Of a stretch of 64,000 bases of DNA, positions 25,981 through 56,889 are shown piece by piece. The notes under the pieces are model-generated. The model did not search any database. It was not told where the DNA came from and saw only the letters and a program-made list of their open reading frames with translations. The position numbers were made by a program, and so were the translations under genes. Numbering within the stretch: the first letter of the stretch is position 1; each line of letters opens with the position of its first letter. Origin of the DNA: Bifidobacterium minimum (lineage in GTDB: Bacteria; Actinomycetota; Actinomycetes; Actinomycetales; Bifidobacteriaceae); the NCBI RefSeq assembly GCF_000741645.1, contig NZ_JGZD01000009.1, positions 434,001 to 498,000 on the forward strand, read 5' to 3'.

Positions 25981-27423
25981 ATGACCGAGGATCTGTTCTC
26001 CGCGAGCGGCGTGGACGATGAGGTGACCAGACCGCTGGCCGTGCGCATGCGTCCCCGCACCCTTGATGAGGTCGTGGGGCAGGATCGTGCTCTGGCGCAG
26101 GGATCCCCATTGCGCGGGCTGGCCGACCCGGCGTCGGCCGGATCTCTGACGTCCCCGACGTCCGTTCTGCTGTATGGCCCCCCGGGCGTGGGAAAGACCA
26201 CGCTGGCGAATATCGTCGCGCGTCAGTCGGGCCGCGTCTTCGAGGAGCTGTCGGCGGTGACGTCGGGGGTCAGGGATGTCCGCTCGGTGCTGCAGCGCGC
26301 CCATGAGCGTCTGGTCACCAGCGGGCGTGAGACGGTGCTGTTCATCGACGAGGTCCATCGGTTCTCGAAATCACAGCAGGACGCCCTTCTGCCCAGCGTG
26401 GAGAACCGTGACGTCACCTTCATCGGGGCGACGACGGAGAATCCCAGCTTCTCGGTTATCGCGGCGCTTCTGAGCAGGTCGGTGGTCGTGCGGCTGGACT
26501 CGCTGGGTGCCGACGATCTGCGTTCGCTTGTCCTGCGGGCGGTCGTCGACGAGCGGGGTCTCGACTCGAAGGTGTCCGTCGACGACGATGCCGTCGATGA
26601 GATCGTGCGCATGTCGTCCGGGGATGCGCGGAAGGCGCTGACGATTCTCGAGGCGGCCGCCAATGGGGTGGACCCCGACAAGCCCGTGATCGACGTCGGC
26701 GTGGTGGGACGCGTCATGGACGTCGCCACGGTGAGGTACGACCGCGACGGCGACGATCACTACGATGTGGCGTCGGCCTTCATCAAATCCATGAGGGGAT
26801 CGGACGTGGACGCGTCGCTGCATTATCTGGCGCGCATGCTGCGGGCGGGGGAGGACCCGAGGTTCATCGCCCGAAGGATTATGATCGCCTCCGCGGAGGA
26901 GGTCGGCATGGCCGCACCGCAGATTCTTCAGGTCACCGTGGCCGCGGCGCAGGCGGTCGCTCTGGTCGGCATGCCGGAGGCGCGGATCATCCTCTCCGAG
27001 GCGGTGATCGCCGTGGCCACGGCGCCCAAGTCCAATGCGAGCTACGAGGCCATCAACAAGGCGCTGGCGGATGTCGACTCCGGTCGCATCGGTCCCGTTC
27101 CACGGCATCTGCGCAATGCGCCGACGGCCCTGATGGCGAGTTGGGGAAACCATCAGGGCTATGTCTACGCGCATGACGCGCCCGACGCCGTGGCCGCACA
27201 GCAGTATATGCCCGACGATCTGGTGGGGACCGAATACTATCACCCCAACAACCGCGGATACGAACGCGAGGTGGGACCGCGATTGGACGCCATACGGGCC
27301 ATTCTGGCGTCGGCGCCTCGATCCGGGACGGCGCCTCGATCCGGGACGGTACCGGAGCCGCGGGCCGACGGATCCGCGCAGTCCAGCCGGGATGGGGACG
27401 GGACCGACCCGGAATCCGACTAG
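25981..27423 (+). CDS. rarA: Replication-associated recombination protein RarA/MgsA (AAA+)
   Basis: 480 residues. AAA+ motifs include Walker A GPPGVGKTT (near 66), Walker B LFIDEVHRF, sensor 1 GATTENPSF and sensor 2 SGDARKAL, followed by the MgsA tetramerisation region with HYDVASAFIKSMRGSD and NKALADV. It acts at stalled replication forks. I begin at the ATG at 25981 because MTEDLF is the normal RarA start. The C-terminal tail contains an 18-base tandem duplication (27313-27330 and 27331-27348) giving APRSGT twice. The stop overlaps the stop of the convergent ECF gene. Confidence 0.94.
   Translation: MTEDLFSASGVDDEVTRPLAVRMRPRTLDEVVGQDRALAQGSPLRGLADPASAGSLTSPTSVLLYGPPGVGKTTLANIVARQSGRVFEELSAVTSGVRDVRSVLQRAHERLVTSGRETVLFIDEVHRFSKSQQDALLPSVENRDVTFIGATTENPSFSVIAALLSRSVVVRLDSLGADDLRSLVLRAVVDERGLDSKVSVDDDAVDEIVRMSSGDARKALTILEAAANGVDPDKPVIDVGVVGRVMDVATVRYDRDGDDHYDVASAFIKSMRGSDVDASLHYLARMLRAGEDPRFIARRIMIASAEEVGMAAPQILQVTVAAAQAVALVGMPEARIILSEAVIAVATAPKSNASYEAINKALADVDSGRIGPVPRHLRNAPTALMASWGNHQGYVYAHDAPDAVAAQQYMPDDLVGTEYYHPNNRGYEREVGPRLDAIRAILASAPRSGTAPRSGTVPEPRADGSAQSSRDGDGTDPESD
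27313..27348 (+). repeat. 18-base tandem duplication in the rarA tail
   Basis: Two exact, adjacent copies of GCGCCTCGATCCGGGACG. In frame, it adds six residues to a disordered tail, so it should be neutral for function. Confidence 0.85.
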
Positions 27424-29825
27424 AAGGCGACTCCCAGAACGATCAGCGCGATCACGTACAGGACGCTGACGATAATCGCCACGACGTCCATGGCCCCGAT
27501 GGACATCGCCCGCCAATGGGTGCGTTTCCCATCGGCCTCGTAGCAGCGTGCGTCAAGCGCCAGACTGAGGTTGTCGGCATGCCGTAGGGTCCCGGCGAAA
27601 ACGGGTATCGTGATGGCGACGAGCGCCCGGATGCGCCGGCCCGGGCTTCCGGATCCCACATCCCCGCCGCGCGCGGACTGGGCGTCGATGATCGAACGCG
27701 TTTCCTCGCCCAGCGTGGGTAGAAAACGCAATGCGAGACTGAGAACCAGGGCCAGGGCGTCCGTATGGATGCCGAGGCGTTTCCAAGGCGACAGCAGGGA
27801 TCCCACAGCGTCGGTGATGCGCGTGGGCGTGGTCGTCAGAAGGACAAGGGCCCCGATCACGATCACCAGCGCGAAACGGCATGAGTACAGGACCGCCGTG
27901 CGCAATCCCTCATCCGTGACGACAAGCGGTCCCCATGCCAGCAGCGTCGTCCCCGTCCTGATCACAAGCACATTGAGCAGTCCGGTGACCGCAAACAGGA
28001 CGAGAAAAGCGCGGATCGAACGACCCAGCCGGCGCGCCGGAACACCCGACAGGGTGACGAGCAGAGCGGTCAGCACGGTCGTCAGCGCCAGCTGCATGGG
28101 GTTGGTGATGGAGAATGCGGTGAACATCAGGGGCAACGCGCTGAGAAGCTTGACCCGGGAATCCATGCGTTCCAATGGTGCCGGACGGTTATGCGAGGGG
28201 TTCCGGCCGCTCCCGCCGGTGGCTCCCTCGTTGCCGGGGAGGGTCACGACGCGGGACGCCTTGCGGATCTGGCTTCTCTCGTGGGTGATGAGGATGACCG
28301 CTACGCCGTTTTCCGACATCATGTCCAGAAGATTCTCCACGCGGGCGACGGCGATGCGGTCCAGCCCGGCGGTGGGCTCGTCCAACACCAGGACCCGGGG
28401 CCGGGATGCGATGATGCCGGCGATGGCGACCAGACGCTGCTGTCCGCCGGACAACGCGAATGGCGAACGGTCCGCCAGGGATGACACGCCCATCATTGCG
28501 AGCGCCTCGTCGACGCGGTCGGCGACCTCAGCCGGGGGAAGGCCCTGATTGCGCGGACCGTACGCCACGTCGTCCCGGACGGTGTCGGCGAACAGCTGGC
28601 GTTCCGGATGCTGCATGACGAATCCCACGTCCCGGCGCAGCGAACGGCTTCGTCGTGATCTCTTTCGGGTCATGTCATGACCGGTCACCATCAGCGTTCC
28701 CGAGCTCGCAGCGCGGCCGAAGCCGCAGATCAGCCGTGCCAGAGTCGTCTTGCCCGAGCCGTTGGGGCCGGTCACGGCGACGCGCTCGCCGGCGTGGACG
28801 TCCAGATCAACATCGTGGAGGACCACCCGGCCGGTGTCCCTGTATCTCAGGCACAGATGGCGGGCGAAGACAAGCGGCTCGTCATCATGCGTCCCGGTGT
28901 CTGATGTTCCGGTGTCTGATGTCCTGGTGTCAGGCGTTCCGGCGCCGTGCCCCGCGTCTTTCGCCTGGACGTCTTTTGCCTGGGTCCCGCCGCATGAACG
29001 CCCGCCGCATGAACAGGAATGAATGCGCGTCTTCGGAGCGCATCCAACGTCGCCGGCTTCTCCGGCTTCTCCAACGTCTCCAACGTCTCCAACGTCACTG
29101 GTGTCGCCGGCGGCGTTCCGGTCGTCCTCGCCGGGTGGCGAATCGGACACGATGCGGCCGTGCTCCATGCGTATGACGCGATCGGCATGGCGGGTCTCAT
29201 CGTGATGGTGGGTGACGTGGATGATGGTCGTCCCGCGCTTCTGGAGGGAATCGAGGATGCGGAGGACCGATCGGCGTGAATCGACGTCAAGCATGGCCGT
29301 GGGCTCGTCGAACACGATCATGTCGGGGCCCATCGACAGGGTTCCCGCGATGGCCACGCGCTGCTGCTGGCCTCCGCTCATGCGGGTGGGATCCGACGCC
29401 TCATGCCCGGACAGCCCCACTGCGGCAAGTGCGGAGTCTACCCTCGTTCCCATGACGGAACGAGGCATGGCCAGATTCTCCGGGCCGAAGGCCACGTCAT
29501 CGGCGACGACCGTCGTGACGATCTGATCCTCCGGATTCTGGAAAACCGCGCCAATGGAGCGGCGCGCCCGCCGATAGCGTTCAGGATGGACGCCGTCATG
29601 ATCACGGACCGTCAGCCCCAGAAGCGTGACCACGCCTTCGTCGGGGGCCGCCAGCCCGGACATGATCCGGGCCAGCGTGGACTTCCCCGACCCGTTGGGC
29701 CCCACCAGACAGATCCTCTGTCCACGGGTGATGGACAGATCGACGCCATCGACGGCCCAGGTCCGTCCCGCATCATAGCTGAGACGGACTCGGGCGAGGG
29801 TCAGTGCGTTCTCAGCGTTGGACAA
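27420..29825 (-). CDS. ECF transporter energising module, EcfA-EcfA-EcfT fusion
   Basis: 801 residues in one chain. ATPase 1: Walker A VGPNGSGKST (41-50), Q-loop FQNPEDQIV, signature MSGGQQQRV and Walker B VFDEP. A linker of about 90 residues contains GDVGDVGEAGEAG repeats and Cys pairs. ATPase 2: Walker A GPNGSGKTT near 354, signature LSGGQQRLV near 462 and LVLDEP. The EcfT membrane domain (about 552-801) has several membrane helices and Ala-Arg-Gly-like coupling motifs (AQSARGGD, LDARCYEADG). It powers vitamin uptake with the upstream RibU. It begins at TTG 29825, overlapping the ribU end by 14 bases, so translation is likely coupled. Confidence 0.9.
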   Translation of the reverse strand: MSNAENALTLARVRLSYDAGRTWAVDGVDLSITRGQRICLVGPNGSGKSTLARIMSGLAAPDEGVVTLLGLTVRDHDGVHPERYRRARRSIGAVFQNPEDQIVTTVVADDVAFGPENLAMPRSVMGTRVDSALAAVGLSGHEASDPTRMSGGQQQRVAIAGTLSMGPDMIVFDEPTAMLDVDSRRSVLRILDSLQKRGTTIIHVTHHHDETRHADRVIRMEHGRIVSDSPPGEDDRNAAGDTSDVGDVGDVGEAGEAGDVGCAPKTRIHSCSCGGRSCGGTQAKDVQAKDAGHGAGTPDTRTSDTGTSDTGTHDDEPLVFARHLCLRYRDTGRVVLHDVDLDVHAGERVAVTGPNGSGKTTLARLICGFGRAASSGTLMVTGHDMTRKRSRRSRSLRRDVGFVMQHPERQLFADTVRDDVAYGPRNQGLPPAEVADRVDEALAMMGVSSLADRSPFALSGGQQRLVAIAGIIASRPRVLVLDEPTAGLDRIAVARVENLLDMMSENGVAVILITHERSQIRKASRVVTLPGNEGATGGSGRNPSHNRPAPLERMDSRVKLLSALPLMFTAFSITNPMQLALTTVLTALLVTLSGVPARRLGRSIRAFLVLFAVTGLLNVLVIRTGTTLLAWGPLVVTDEGLRTAVLYSCRFALVIVIGALVLLTTTPTRITDAVGSLLSPWKRLGIHTDALALVLSLALRFLPTLGEETRSIIDAQSARGGDVGSGSPGRRIRALVAITIPVFAGTLRHADNLSLALDARCYEADGKRTHWRAMSIGAMDVVAIIVSVLYVIALIVLGVAF

Positions 29826-30427
29826 GATTCGACACCGGTTTGTATATCAGGAACGTCACCACGCTATGCAGGGCGAATTTGAGGACATTGAAGGGAAGAA
29901 GTACCGGAACGATCATCGCGGCGACCGCGGCGACGCTCATCTTGGCATAGATGGGAGTGATCAGCAGATTGCCGAGGATGGCCACGGCGAGCGCGGCGAC
30001 GGATCCGACGACAAGCGCCAGAGCCGCGCCCTTGCGCGTGTGCATCCGGCGGTAGATAAGTGATGCCGGGACGCTCAGGGCCAGAGCCACGGCGACCGCC
30101 ATCACCGTACCCCACGGATTGGTGAGGAGATGGGGTGCGAATCCCAGAACGCTTACGATGGCCGCCGCCGAAGGGCCGAAGATGAATCCGGCGATGAGGC
30201 AGACGATGCCGGAGGGGTCGTATTTGAGCCATGGTGCCGCGGGCATGAGGGGGAACTCGACGAAGGCTGAGTGCCATGGCCAAGGCGACGAAAAGCGCGT
30301 ATACGGCGATGAGACGCGTGGACCAGCGTCCCGAATCCGAAACGCCCGTCCCGTGGGGGGATTCGGTCCCGTCCGTTGAGTGGCTGCTGGAATGCGTCGT
30401 GTTGGAGGCATGATTGAATGTGCTCAT
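29812..30427 (-). pseudogene. ribU: Riboflavin ECF S component RibU, disrupted by a one-base insertion
   Basis: The first frame encodes a Ser/Thr-rich N-terminus and the first membrane helix (LIAVYALFVALAMALS). From about 30265 the protein continues in the next frame with FVEFPLMPAAPWLKYDPSG, the RibU signature of helix 1-2, then LIAGFIFGPSA and four more helices. Removing one C from AGCCTTCGTC on the coding strand restores a 204-residue S component. An FMN riboswitch lies directly upstream, which fixes the substrate as riboflavin or FMN precursors. The 616-base length is one over a multiple of three, as expected for a single insertion. Confidence 0.88.
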
Positions 30428-30437
30428 GGAAGAGCCT

Positions 30438-30580
30438 CGTTTCTTTCATCCGGACTGTAACCGTTGGCTCCGGACTTCGACCGGGATCAACCGTCCTTCG
30501 ACGGGTCGCGGGCTTCGCAGGGAATCGACATCATCGAATATGCGCCACCGCCAGTAAGGATTTTCACCTTCCCTGAAACT
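30438..30580 (-). ncRNA. FMN riboswitch (RFN element)
   Basis: On the minus strand the conserved RFN blocks appear in order: TTTCAGGGAAGGTG, ATCCTTACTGGCGGT, AAGCCCGCGA, a variable arm, then GGTCGAAGTCCGGAGCC, CAACGGTTACAGTCCGGATG and GAAAGAAAC. The outer stem P1 pairs GTTTC (30579-30575) with GAAAC (30443-30439). It ends about 11 bases before the ribU ATG, so the switch overlaps the ribosome site and probably represses translation initiation when FMN is bound. Confidence 0.95.
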
Positions 30581-30728
30581 TGCAGGATCATCTATACACC
30601 CAACGGCGATGGCCCGCAAGGCCGTTCCCAGAAGGCGCCCGATGCCGGAGAGTTCGGTGGTGCGGCGGCGGGACTCGGCGGCGGATGGGCTCATTCCCGT
30701 CTGTCCCAGCCGGTGCGACAATGGACGT

Positions 30729-53308: not shown

Positions 53309-53427
53309 ATCGGCGCGGGACGCGGCATGGACCGAATCATTCCCGTGAATCGTGAATCATACGAATCACCCGCGTGTCCTGTGATCCGCTCCATCTGACC
53401 GGGCCTGCCTCTAGACTCGGCAATCGA

Positions 53428-53532
53428 CACGGGGGCTGTGCATGAACGCATGGCTGAGATGAGGCCGGACGGCCTCGACCGCATGAACGTGAATCCGGGT
53501 AATGCCGGCGCACGGACGTCGCGAATCCCGTG
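53428..53532 (+). ncRNA. TPP riboswitch (THI element)
   Basis: Conserved blocks: CACGGGGGCTGTGC, GGCTGAGATGAGGCC, GACCGCATGAACGTGA, ATCCGGGTAATGCCGGCG and the closing CCCGTG, which pairs with CACGGG. This is the THI-box consensus. It controls the ykoE-ykoDC operon. An 18-base hairpin (53541-53558, GATGCTCC with GGAGCATC) between it and the ribosome site is the likely expression platform. Confidence 0.95.
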
Positions 53533-53540
53533 CCTTACGA

Positions 53541-53558
53541 GATGCTCCATGGAGCATC
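53541..53558 (+). promoter_or_regulatory. Expression-platform hairpin of the TPP riboswitch
   Basis: GATGCTCC-AT-GGAGCATC forms a tight 8-bp stem with a two-base loop eight bases after the aptamer. The ykoE ribosome site (GAAAGG) follows. A role in switching between ribosome-site open and closed states is inferred. Confidence 0.55.
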
Positions 53559-53579
53559 GGATGAAGAAAGGCACAGAAA

Positions 53580-54215
53580 ATGTCACAGGACAACAGCAGA
53601 ACGGATGCGGAGACTTCATCGGCGTCTATGCGGTGGCGCGTGGTGGACATCGCCGTCGCCTCGGTGATCGCCGTGGCCAGCGCGTTGATATATTGGGGCG
53701 TCGCCATCGCCACCTATGCGCCGTGGAGCGCGTTGGAGGCCATCGTTCCGGGACTCGCCGGAATCTTCAATGGATTATGGCTTTTCGCGGGGCCCCTTGC
53801 CGCGATCATCGTGCGCAAGCCCGGTGCGGCCGTCTACGCCGAGGTCGTGGCGGCCGTGCTCGAGGCGTTGATGGGCAACGTCTGGGGCGGCGTGGCCACG
53901 GTCCTCATCGGACTGGTTCAGGGGTTGCTCGCCGAAGCGGCTTTTCTGGCGTTCGCCTACCGCAGATGGACGCTTCCCGTGGCCGCGCTGTCGGGCGCGC
54001 TGTCCGGGATCGGATGCTGGGGATACTCCTTCTTCACGCACCTCCAGGCCATAAGCGCCACGGGCAGCTACGGAATCATGTATTTCGTCACCACCACGTT
54101 GTCGGGCGCCGTCATCGCGGGAGTGCTGATGTGGTATCTCTATATCGCCATCGCCAGGACCGGGGCGCTTGATGCGTTCGTGTCGGGACGTCAGATCCGC
54201 GGAACGCAGGACTAG
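53580..54215 (+). CDS. ykoE: Thiamine/HMP ECF S component
   Basis: 211 residues with five or six membrane helices. Loops such as TYAPWSALEAIVPG, FNGLWLFAGPLAAI, GAAVYAEVVAAVLEAL and GNVWGG match YkoE-type substrate-binding components, and a TPP riboswitch is directly upstream, so thiamine or its hydroxymethylpyrimidine precursor is the likely substrate. It should bind and release substrate while toppling in the membrane. The start ATG at 53580 follows GAAAGG. The fused A-A-T engine follows after 13 bases. Confidence 0.93.
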   Translation: MSQDNSRTDAETSSASMRWRVVDIAVASVIAVASALIYWGVAIATYAPWSALEAIVPGLAGIFNGLWLFAGPLAAIIVRKPGAAVYAEVVAAVLEALMGNVWGGVATVLIGLVQGLLAEAAFLAFAYRRWTLPVAALSGALSGIGCWGYSFFTHLQAISATGSYGIMYFVTTTLSGAVIAGVLMWYLYIAIARTGALDAFVSGRQIRGTQD

Positions 54216-54228
54216 AGGCAGCAACCAT

Positions 54229-56889
54229 ATGTCGACAAGCAGCGAACGCGTCCGTTCCTCCGACGCGGTGGATCCGTCGTGCACCCGGGATTCCGTCTCG
54301 AAGGGCGCGGGCGGCGCTTCCCCCGAGGCTTCCGGGCGCGGGCGAGGCGCTTCGCTGCGGTTCGTCGATTGGGGGTTCCGCCACGCGTCTCGACGGCGGT
54401 TCGCCGTGCGCGGACTCAACCTCGACATTCCCGCCGGGCAGCGGGTTCTTCTTCTGGGCGCTTCGGGAATCGGCAAATCGACCATTCTCGAGGGATGCGC
54501 GGGGATTCTCGGCGTCGATGCCGGCGAGTCCCCGGAATCCCGGGCAGTGGAATCCCGGTCAGCGCGGACGCAGACAACGCAGACGCAGACAACGCAGACA
54601 GCGCAGACGCGGCGTGTGGAGGATTCCGATGGGGGAGTGAGCGAGGGGCGGGTCCTCGTCGACGGGGTCCCCGTCGCGCGCGCGCGTGGACGGGTCGGAC
54701 TCGTTCTGCAGGATCCTGAGTCCCAAACCGTCTTCCATCGCGTGGGGGACAATACGGCCTTCGGCCCTGAGAACCTTGGGATCCCCCGCGAGGAGATATG
54801 GCGGCGCGTGGAGGACGGCCTCGCGCAGGTCGGTCTTTCCGGCATCCAGCTGCACCATTCCACCGCGCATCTCAGCGGCGGGCAGACGCAGCGTCTGGCG
54901 TTGGCCGGGGTCCTGTCCATGAAGCCCGGTGCGATCCTTCTGGATGAGCCGACCGCCAATCTGGATCCGGACGGAGTCGATCAGATCGTCGCCGCGGTGG
55001 GAAGCGTCCTTGAATCGACTCATGCGACGATGCTTCTGGTCGAGCATCGCGCGCAGCCATGGATGGACATCATCGACAGAGTCGTCGTTCTCGGCGTTGC
55101 GGGGAATGGGGATGACCGTGAAACGGTTGTCGTCGCGGATGGGACTCCCGATAAGGTGTTCGGGAATCCGACGATCGACTTCGATCGGCTGGGGATATGG
55201 GTGCCGCGGCGATACCGGCATGACGGTGGCCGCATCGGCGTGGTCCATGTTGACGGGGAGCCCGCGTATGGCGCGAAGGAGGGAACGGGGGACCCTCTTC
55301 TGGTTGCGACCGGACTGTCCATCGGTCGTTCGGGACGGGCGTTGGCCGGGAACATCGACCTCGCGTTTCGCACGGGTCAGATAACGGCGTTGGTCGGTGC
55401 GAACGGAGCCGGCAAATCCACGCTGTCGCTGACCCTTGCGGGATTGCTGAAACCGGTCGCGGGGGAGGTCCGTGCATGCGGTGATCTGGCTCGTGGCGTC
55501 GACGACCCCCATCCGCTGTCGTGGAGTTCACGGGAGCTGGCCGCCAGAATCTCCTACGTGTTCCAGAATCCCGAGCATCAATTCGCACGAGGGACCGTTC
55601 TCGACGAGGTCATGCTGGGGCCCCTGCGCACGGGCATGGACGAGGAGAAGGCCAGGGCGCGCGCCGAGGATCTGCTTGCCCGATTCAATCTCGGACGGTA
55701 CGCAAGGGCCAATCCCTACACGCTTTCGGGCGGGGAGAAGCGCCGTCTCACGGTCGCCGCCGCGTTGGCGGCCGCCCCCCGGGTCCTGATTCTCGACGAG
55801 CCGACCTTCGGACAGGACCGGCGCACCTGGATGCAGATCGTCAGACTGATCCGCGGACTGCGCGGGGATGGCGTCAGCGTGATCGTGGTCACCCATGACA
55901 GGGAGCTGGTCTCGGCCCTGGACGCTCGAGTCGTCGAACTCGTCCCCTCGGGTGCTGACGGTGAATGGGTGGCTAAGGAGAGCCCGGTCACATCGTCCGC
56001 GCCGTCCGAGCCGTCCACGTCGGTCGGAGCGGTCGGAGCGACGACGGATCAGGATGACGGACGTCACTCATCCATCAGGATCGCCGTCAGCCCGGTCAGC
56101 CATCGGTCCGAGGACGAGAAGCCGTCAAGCAGATCCCCCGTGCTGGCGTCCCTGAACCCCTCCATCCGACTTATCGGGGCTTTTCTGGTGTCGCTTCCCC
56201 TTCTTTTTAGTCTGGACGTCGTGTCGGCCGGCGTCGCGTTGGGATTGGAGATGGTTCTGCTGGCGGTGATCGGGTATGCCCCATGGCATGTGGCGCGTTC
56301 GTGCTGGCCGATAATCGTCGGCGCTCCGGGATCGGCCCTGGCCGTTCTTCTCTATGGGAAGACGGGAGGGGATGTCTGGTGGAGCTGGGCGATGATCGTC
56401 GTCAGCGATAAGTCCGCGACCCTTGCCGTGGCCACCGCGGTGCGCATACTGGCGGTCGGCATCCCCGCCATCGTGATGGTTCTGGGCGTCGATGCCACGG
56501 ATCTGGCGGATTCCTTCAGCCAGATCCTGCATCTTCCGGATCGGTTCGTGTACGGGGGGCTGGCCGGGATGAGGCTGTTCTCCGTGCTGCGCGACGACTG
56601 GTCCGCCCTGGCCGCCTCGCGCAGGTCTCGTGGCCTGGGCGACGACAGCGCGGTGAGGTCCTTCATGCCGCAGGCCTTCGCCCTGCTGGTCCTGTCCATA
56701 CGACGGTCGACGTCTCTGGCCGTGGCCATGGAGGCGCGGGGCTTCGGCGGCGACATGGCGCGAACCCATGCCCGGATCAGCGCCGTCCACGTCCGTGACG
56801 CGGTGTTCCTCGCGGTGTGTCTGGCGGTTCCTCTCGTCGCCCTGTTCACGGCGTGGTGGTGCGGAACGTTCGCTTTCCTTGGAGGCTGA
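54229..56889 (+). CDS. ECF energising module YkoD-YkoC fusion (A-A-T)
   Basis: 886 residues. ATPase 1: GASGIGKST near 78, signature LSGGQTQRL near 214, LLDEPTANLD; its N-terminal half carries a Gln/Thr-rich insertion of about 15 residues (about 113-127). ATPase 2: GANGAGKST near 389, FQNPEHQFA, LSGGEKRRL near 502, LILDEPTFGQD. A Ser/Thr-rich linker (about 590-640) leads to an EcfT domain with four to five helices and ARRSRGLG-like coupling motifs. In YkoEDCF systems YkoD and YkoC are usually separate; here both ATPases and the T subunit are one protein. No YkoF is adjacent. Confidence 0.92.
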   Translation: MSTSSERVRSSDAVDPSCTRDSVSKGAGGASPEASGRGRGASLRFVDWGFRHASRRRFAVRGLNLDIPAGQRVLLLGASGIGKSTILEGCAGILGVDAGESPESRAVESRSARTQTTQTQTTQTAQTRRVEDSDGGVSEGRVLVDGVPVARARGRVGLVLQDPESQTVFHRVGDNTAFGPENLGIPREEIWRRVEDGLAQVGLSGIQLHHSTAHLSGGQTQRLALAGVLSMKPGAILLDEPTANLDPDGVDQIVAAVGSVLESTHATMLLVEHRAQPWMDIIDRVVVLGVAGNGDDRETVVVADGTPDKVFGNPTIDFDRLGIWVPRRYRHDGGRIGVVHVDGEPAYGAKEGTGDPLLVATGLSIGRSGRALAGNIDLAFRTGQITALVGANGAGKSTLSLTLAGLLKPVAGEVRACGDLARGVDDPHPLSWSSRELAARISYVFQNPEHQFARGTVLDEVMLGPLRTGMDEEKARARAEDLLARFNLGRYARANPYTLSGGEKRRLTVAAALAAAPRVLILDEPTFGQDRRTWMQIVRLIRGLRGDGVSVIVVTHDRELVSALDARVVELVPSGADGEWVAKESPVTSSAPSEPSTSVGAVGATTDQDDGRHSSIRIAVSPVSHRSEDEKPSSRSPVLASLNPSIRLIGAFLVSLPLLFSLDVVSAGVALGLEMVLLAVIGYAPWHVARSCWPIIVGAPGSALAVLLYGKTGGDVWWSWAMIVVSDKSATLAVATAVRILAVGIPAIVMVLGVDATDLADSFSQILHLPDRFVYGGLAGMRLFSVLRDDWSALAASRRSRGLGDDSAVRSFMPQAFALLVLSIRRSTSLAVAMEARGFGGDMARTHARISAVHVRDAVFLAVCLAVPLVALFTAWWCGTFAFLGG

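Follow-up and report, generated by a model that had tools for sequence, protein, structure and literature searches.

We analysed 64,000 nucleotides of the Bifidobacterium minimum genome (contig NZ_JGZD01000009.1, positions 434,001 to 498,000 of the forward strand; hereafter the window) and found that positions 53419–56889 hold a known kind of locus, YkoEDC with a thiamine pyrophosphate (TPP) switch, in a derived, fused form. Very probably, this locus is a TPP-repressed group I energy-coupling factor (ECF) importer of the YkoEDC family for thiamine or its pyrimidine half, hydroxymethylpyrimidine (HMP), whose YkoD and YkoC parts were joined within the Bifidobacteriaceae independently of the joining seen in the riboflavin module of the same window. 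An earlier reading from the letters alone (the sequence-only reading) had proposed a second frame of the order ATPase–ATPase–T domain (A-A-T) here, with a TPP riboswitch and YkoE, and profile matches at 53419–56889 bore this out. Throughout, L with a number denotes a fetched locus, G with a number a genome, and f and g families and genera of the comparison set; the genome carrying the window is 88% complete.

Anatomy and spread of the fused YkoEDC locus

The motor gene opens at an ATG at 54229, 13 bases past the ykoE stop (the longest frame opens at a TTG at 54169), and ends at 56889. Its frame holds two ABC_tran stretches (4.2e-51) and a CbiQ match (5.1e-16), and in the translation each ATPase domain, A1 and A2, has signature, Walker and His motifs that look intact by eye. 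The gene before it encodes a YkoE-family S subunit, for which B. subtilis YkoE (5edl, E 6.7e-23) was the only solved chain matching up to E 1. The features of the locus are:

53419–53534, + strand: TPP riboswitch aptamer (THI element; RF00059, 53.6 bits, E 7.9e-10)
53530–53536, + strand: GTGCCTT, 5′ arm of a putative helix hiding the ykoE ribosome site (minimum-energy fold)
53568–53574, + strand: AAGGCAC, 3′ arm over the presumed ykoE Shine-Dalgarno site (predicted function)
53580–54215, + strand: YkoE, predicted substrate-binding S subunit, 211 aa (PF09819, 7.5e-36)
54229–56889, + strand: fused A-A-T motor (YkoD plus YkoC), 886 aa (two ABC_tran and CbiQ in one frame)
54364–55092, + strand: A1 ATPase domain with a Thr/Gln-rich insert (domain scan)
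55309–55941, + strand: A2 ATPase domain (domain scan; best PF00005 stretch)
55942–56136, + strand: A2-T linker joining YkoD to YkoC, about 65 residues (domain borders)
56137–56823, + strand: T domain of YkoC/CbiQ type (PF02361; groups with YkoC-type T domains)

In trees, A1 and A2 group with unfused YkoE-linked domains of the order (support 96* and 95*), identifying a YkoD-type fused ATPase pair, and the T domain falls inside the YkoE-linked T group, identifying it as YkoC type. The closest described system is the group I thiamine/HMP importer YkoEDC of B. subtilis, which, in the available part of PMC5037267, comprises the S subunit YkoE, the two-ATPase YkoD and the T protein YkoC; a THI-box is common to both systems. 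Since two fused ATPases are already the normal state of B. subtilis YkoD (PMC5037267, same part), only the joining of T is derived: here YkoD and YkoC are one polypeptide, whereas there YkoC is a separate protein. The window genome further differs from that system in giving no YkoF match, in having two thiazole contacts replaced and in carrying a second, orphan YkoE.

The fused YkoDC is 45–67% identical to 15 fused relatives. Relatives of the window genome include Gardnerella piotii (G075) and an uncultured Bifidobacterium (L211), whose T domain is 79% identical to that of the window. A structure model of the motor (16 sequences) reached a mean pLDDT (predicted local distance difference test) of 81.4 and a pTM (predicted template modelling score) of 0.79, with segments of at least three residues below pLDDT 50 at the N-terminus (1–37), in A1 (113–125) and in the A2-T linker (582–613), the pattern expected of folded units with a loose linker between them. 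In a fold search of the Protein Data Bank with the whole motor model, the best solved matches were paired-ATPase chains, uninformative for the T part, and no chain named as an ECF subunit stood among the best 50 rows. On this anatomy, YkoE would bind thiamine or HMP outside the membrane, dock on the motor and topple; the single polypeptide, YkoD plus YkoC tied by a flexible linker, would be the ATP-driven motor, and the fusion may keep its parts in step.

The fusion is common, not universal, in the Bifidobacteriaceae. Among family loci chosen by hand, not as a random sample, and counted by hand with named records excluded, YkoDC was fused beside YkoE in 33 family genomes (including G026, with ykoE in two broken frames, and G073, whose motor frame reaches the stretch end), fused without adjacent YkoE in four, and unfused beside YkoE at 15 loci (the T frame of two, L084 and L085, being cut by the stretch end). 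With A-A and T separate, these 15 YkoE-linked loci reject the idea, raised in the sequence-only reading, that every ECF system of the clade is fused. In the order beyond the family, A-A and T were separate at 19 of the 20 YkoE loci examined (L136–L155), the exception being the fused L139 (Nesterenkonia); the separate arrangement beside YkoE recurs at L175, a locus retrieved for its T domain. Counts for YkoE itself were 128 of 151 genomes in the family and 146 of 198 in the order. A YkoC-type T domain was present in all 20 hand-chosen YkoE-bearing family genomes; among the 23 family genomes without YkoE, four gave any match. One of these, in the 76% complete genome G040, is strong (248 bits) and lies 610 bases from the start of a contig. 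The remaining three matches are weak (25–31 bits), lie at long frames with much better CbiQ scores, and are probably of RibU type.

Origin of the A-A-T fusion

The window also carries a RibU-type importer on the opposite strand:

27420–29825, − strand: A-A-T motor of the riboflavin (RibU-type) system (domain scan, trees)
29812–30411, − strand: RibU-type S subunit (PF12822, 52.8 bits; PF07155, 28.4 bits)
30434–30584, − strand: flavin mononucleotide (FMN) riboswitch (RF00050, 80 bits)

Like the YkoDC module, this importer (27420–30584) has the A-A-T order in one chain, a riboswitch in front and an adjacent S subunit; unlike it, it has another S family and riboswitch, other linkers and separate T, A1 and A2 places in the trees. 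Across 880 alignment columns the two A-A-T proteins show 28% identity, and their linkers, whose lengths depend on our own domain borders, measure 73 (YkoDC) versus 102 residues between A1 and A2 and 66 versus 19 between A2 and T. The earlier description of two systems 24 kb apart with the same fusion order, different linkers and low likeness was therefore accurate. An FMN switch stood above cut-off in 13 of 14 fetched RibU-type loci (L120–L133), L122 having none.

Each T, A1 and A2 domain was labelled fused (A-A-T in one frame) or unfused and placed in a tree, following the phylogeny suggested in the sequence-only reading; the two motors are placed apart in all three. In the T tree (97 rows), the YkoE-linked T domains stand together (56 rows, support 90). 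The bifidobacterial YkoC-type T domains form 35 rows (100*), consisting of 10 unfused (98*) and 25 fused rows (82; 94 without three long rows), and the 15 RibU-type fused rows are separate (99*), beside two unfused rows from small genomes of g11 and g13 (87). Forcing the 41 fused T rows into one clade lowered the log-likelihood by 189 (approximately unbiased test, p-AU 2e-82), with the long branches L037, L134 and L135 left out of this constrained test. The fewest fused/unfused changes were three each for T, A1 and A2, the A1 and A2 trees leaving out the near copies L087, L090, L091, L094, L108 and L121, the same three long branches and domains under 150 residues. A wider T tree, which leaves out part of the family rows, L214 (on the same contig as L139), T pieces under 180 residues and loci without YkoE except L212 and L260, needed six changes, at least five of them forced by starred branches. 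Further YkoE-linked A-A-T frames were found in Nesterenkonia (two), Arthrobacter sp. AQ5-05, Alicyclobacillus suci and an Actinomycetaceae bin. With three changes per domain and six in the wider T tree, repeated A-A-T fusion, rather than an old duplicate, is well supported.

The sequence-only reading had left two histories side by side, a fusion that arose twice and one duplicated long ago. The T, A1 and A2 trees favour the former. A single ancient A-A-T fusion duplicated into thiamine and riboflavin motors would suit their shared domain order, shared genome and 28% identity, and both A-A-T forms are widespread in the family; we nevertheless reject it as very improbable, because the T tree excludes one clade of fused rows at the p-AU given above, A1 and A2 also need three changes each, and a single origin would demand 12 independent losses by fission on the rooted T tree. 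Less improbable, although we still consider it unlikely, is a fusion at the base of bifidobacterial YkoDC that split again in the lineage with separate YkoD and YkoC. Such a fission is possible because the wider T tree does not resolve the fused/unfused split within the family: 7 unfused bifidobacterial rows (99*) and several fused groups branch there from one unresolved fork. In L110 and L245 the longest A-A frame also overlaps the longest T frame by 59 bases. Yet the first T tree puts fused and unfused rows as two groups, the YkoE tree separates them as well (29 rows each; 95*, 97*), and the unfused rows are not nested in fused rows in the A1 tree either.

Several features of the trees, besides that unresolved split, weigh against a joining of YkoD and YkoC within the family that is independent of the riboflavin module's. 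All are quick trees with support from the Shimodaira–Hasegawa-like approximate likelihood ratio test (SH-aLRT) only, and the wider T tree contains three long rows (L244, L256, L266), two of them fused. The T and A2 trees join fused and unfused bifidobacterial YkoDC (100* and 99*), whereas in the A1 tree a set of 37 rows (96*) unites the fused ones with other families and excludes the 7 unfused bifidobacterial rows. This A1 conflict leaves the count of three changes as it was but allows more than one history within the family. The available parts of PMC5037267, PMC6593275, PMC11109136, PMC3246461, PMC6828968 and PMC7755397 contain no statement of the fusion or of YkoE sharing; subscription papers lay outside this coverage, so this is not evidence that either is unpublished.

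Probable riboswitch control, substrate and thiamine context

The aptamer match is full-length (model positions 1–105, mean accuracy 0.94), with the consensus core and helices of RF00059 present. The invariant core columns are common to nine other aptamers, and a model built from the window aptamer and nine others (R1) found an aptamer in 69 of 73 family stretches, four of which had themselves contributed a sequence to R1, and in 46 of 49 order stretches. GTGCCTT, which overlaps the final bases of the Rfam match, and AAGGCAC are paired in the minimum-energy fold of 53419–53600 (z −2.68). A script applied to 15 relatives found an arm pair of 6–8 bases in 13, all but L081 and L116 (the left arm of L080 lies further downstream); for the window itself it ranked a different hairpin first. 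The helix sequence is conserved, and therefore offers no covariation with which to probe it. An intrinsic terminator behind the aptamer was rejected, with no terminator-like site listed between 53534 and 53580 and five listed within or after the motor gene. Because the helix would cover the presumed ribosome site and no terminator-like site lies between aptamer and gene, translational control is the likeliest mode: abundant TPP would lead the aptamer to favour the helix hiding the ykoE ribosome-binding site, and synthesis of YkoE and the motor would drop together.

What the system imports is suggested by the binding residues. B. subtilis YkoE holds the pyrimidine ring by Trp49, Glu77 and Gln95 and the thiazole by Asp131 and Tyr46, and binds thiamine with a Kd of about 4.5 nM (PMC5037267, available part). 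The window YkoE keeps W49, E77 and Q95 (B. subtilis numbering) and has N for Y46 and S for D131. With W, E and Q kept and S and N at 131 and 46, this YkoE probably recognises the pyrimidine half, and the thiazole half to a lesser degree; because both thiazole contacts are replaced, HMP may be its substrate instead of thiamine. A survey of gut genomes, in its available part, places YkoEDC under HMP and YkoEDC2 under thiamine (PMC6593275). Conceivably, the S subunit imports a compound that is neither thiamine nor HMP, such as another pyrimidine, with the TPP switch reflecting mere co-regulation. The lost thiazole contacts would fit, but we hold this to be improbable given the three of three pyrimidine contacts kept, the TPP switch in nearly all family and order stretches searched (counts above), and the thiamine binding reported for B. 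subtilis YkoE.

The thiamine/HMP importer under TPP control thus has three points to answer that tell against it: the replaced thiazole contacts, the aptamer score and the genome's own synthesis genes. In a 451-base search the aptamer scored 0.7 bits short of the Rfam gathering cut-off of 54.3, a threshold set by curators and not a structural feature, and it is unlisted in a scan of the window at that threshold; the other two TPP sites of the genome score 55.1 and 51.8 bits, the latter also missing the cut-off. As to import need, ThiC is present in the genome, as are matches to ThiE (partial, the gene being cut by the end of the fetched locus), hydroxyethylthiazole kinase, ThiS and ThiF, and its other TPP switches stand at the hydroxyethylthiazole kinase/ThiE pair and the ThiS/ThiF pair. 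With ThiC and TPP switches at two thi gene pairs, the importer looks like salvage in a cell able to make at least parts of thiamine. Loss of ThiC as the reason for YkoE is not supported, since the window genome has ThiC, as do 61 of the 151 genomes in the family, one of them by a weak partial match (no formal co-occurrence test was made).

The sequence-only reading had also remarked on the missing YkoF. YkoF gave no match in the window genome at its stated completeness, so the observation holds at the locus; as a peculiarity it is rejected, since 149 of 151 family genomes also lack a match. YkoF matched in the remaining 2 family genomes and in 28 of 198 order genomes, some of these matches adjoining a YkoE match (G248 and G261, for example).

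Orphan YkoE paralogues and a possibly shared motor

At least two YkoE matches occur in 93 of the 128 YkoE-bearing family genomes (a hand count in which a broken gene may count twice, as in G026). In a YkoE tree of 135 rows, 77 of 80 family rows fall in four groups. Group i (29 rows, 95*) has a motor adjacent to every row, fused wherever the locus was fetched whole. Group ii (29 rows, 97*) comprises 21 rows with an adjacent motor (unfused where fetched whole), 4 orphans and 4 undecided rows. Group iii consists of 9 orphans with a TPP switch (92), and group iv of 10 orphans (100*) with neither a TPP match nor a motor within the fetched 4–13 kb. The residue comparison of YkoE left out pieces under 140 residues and identical copies. 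Some of its rows, namely L031, L083, L196, L199, L200 and short loci, bear a 'U' label because their stretches stop within the motor gene; the five named loci proved fused when refetched.

The second YkoE of the window genome (L035:5299–6141; contig C9:302299–303141, + strand) belongs to group iv. It lies 185 kb away, with no TPP match in 13 kb and no motor nearby, between an aldehyde dehydrogenase-like frame and an L31 leader/release factor region (by eye except the leader). Group iv, which other genomes of the genus also carry, keeps W, E and Q in all of its 10 rows, while position 46 is H and position 131 is L or V; a later copy, L329, has Q in place of E77. The window genome has one YkoC-type motor and two YkoE.

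Two other genomes of the genus, G038 and G069, have two YkoE each and a single YkoC-type motor, with neither YkoE adjacent to it. In G038 the YkoE genes lie about 225 and 298 kb from the motor on the same contig, and the motor (L311:662–3157), the only one of YkoC type found in the genome, has no YkoE or TPP match in the fetched stretch; in G069 one YkoE lies about 53 kb from the motor and the other on another contig. Fused motors with their own TPP switch and no adjacent YkoE occur in G075 (L111:6414–9077), G069 (L105:574–3369) and G134 (L312:3282–5894), and G075 and G134 also have an unfused YkoE-linked set. The YkoE of G075 at L033 is not an unlinked copy, since it has an unfused motor of its own (L320); two other copies are the unlinked ones.

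Because no YkoE stands beside the only motor of G038 and G069, a working system there would require the S subunit to reach the motor in trans. We see about an even chance that one A-A-T polypeptide energises at least two YkoE paralogues in trans, including the riboswitch-less orphan class; that two S subunits share one motor in the window genome is suggested by analogy only. Group II ECF transporters use a shared EcfA-EcfA′-EcfT module with several S subunits. In bifidobacteria, YkoE paralogues located at a distance from the sole YkoC-type motor hint at a similar use in trans, perhaps by more than one S subunit, judged from gene positions alone; unlike in group II, the S subunits are of one family, YkoE, the motor is of the YkoDC line, and the exchange is hypothetical. 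Alternatively, an orphan YkoE might work alone, as uptake activity without a motor is reported for group I S subunits such as BioY (PMC3246461, available part), or a group iv YkoE might dock on the riboflavin motor.

Other ECF-like arrangements were seen among the fetched loci. Tandem YkoE-YkoE pairs precede one motor in L076, L115 and L117 (genera g13 and g11) and in L141 (family f6). G033 carries a second, divergent YkoE, A-A and T set (L208:1–2460), near B. subtilis YkoE on a very long branch and perhaps acquired from outside. In the window genome, L036:7521–9097 (contig C9) holds a short T piece (138 aa) and two ATPase pieces and looks like a decayed ECF module, and L037:4400–8843 (contig C14) is another ECF-like set, made up of a two-domain ATPase (502 aa), an ABC exporter-type protein and a membrane protein that matches Trep_Strep and, weakly, CbiQ. 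At L111:4367–5728, two similar S-like membrane proteins, one matching the TrpP family, precede a separate A-A plus T module and a UbiA-family prenyltransferase.

Evolution arrived at the A-A-T order more than once, which makes the joining of motor subunits look like an easy and recurrent change among ECF systems. A shared YkoDC motor, if real, would blur the divide between group I and group II and illustrate how sharing can start, with S subunits of a single family multiplying by duplication around one fused motor; G038 and G069 are a natural test of whether group I modules are dedicated. Bifidobacteria are gut symbionts in which vitamin B1 exchange is of interest, and their orphan YkoE classes are candidate importers.

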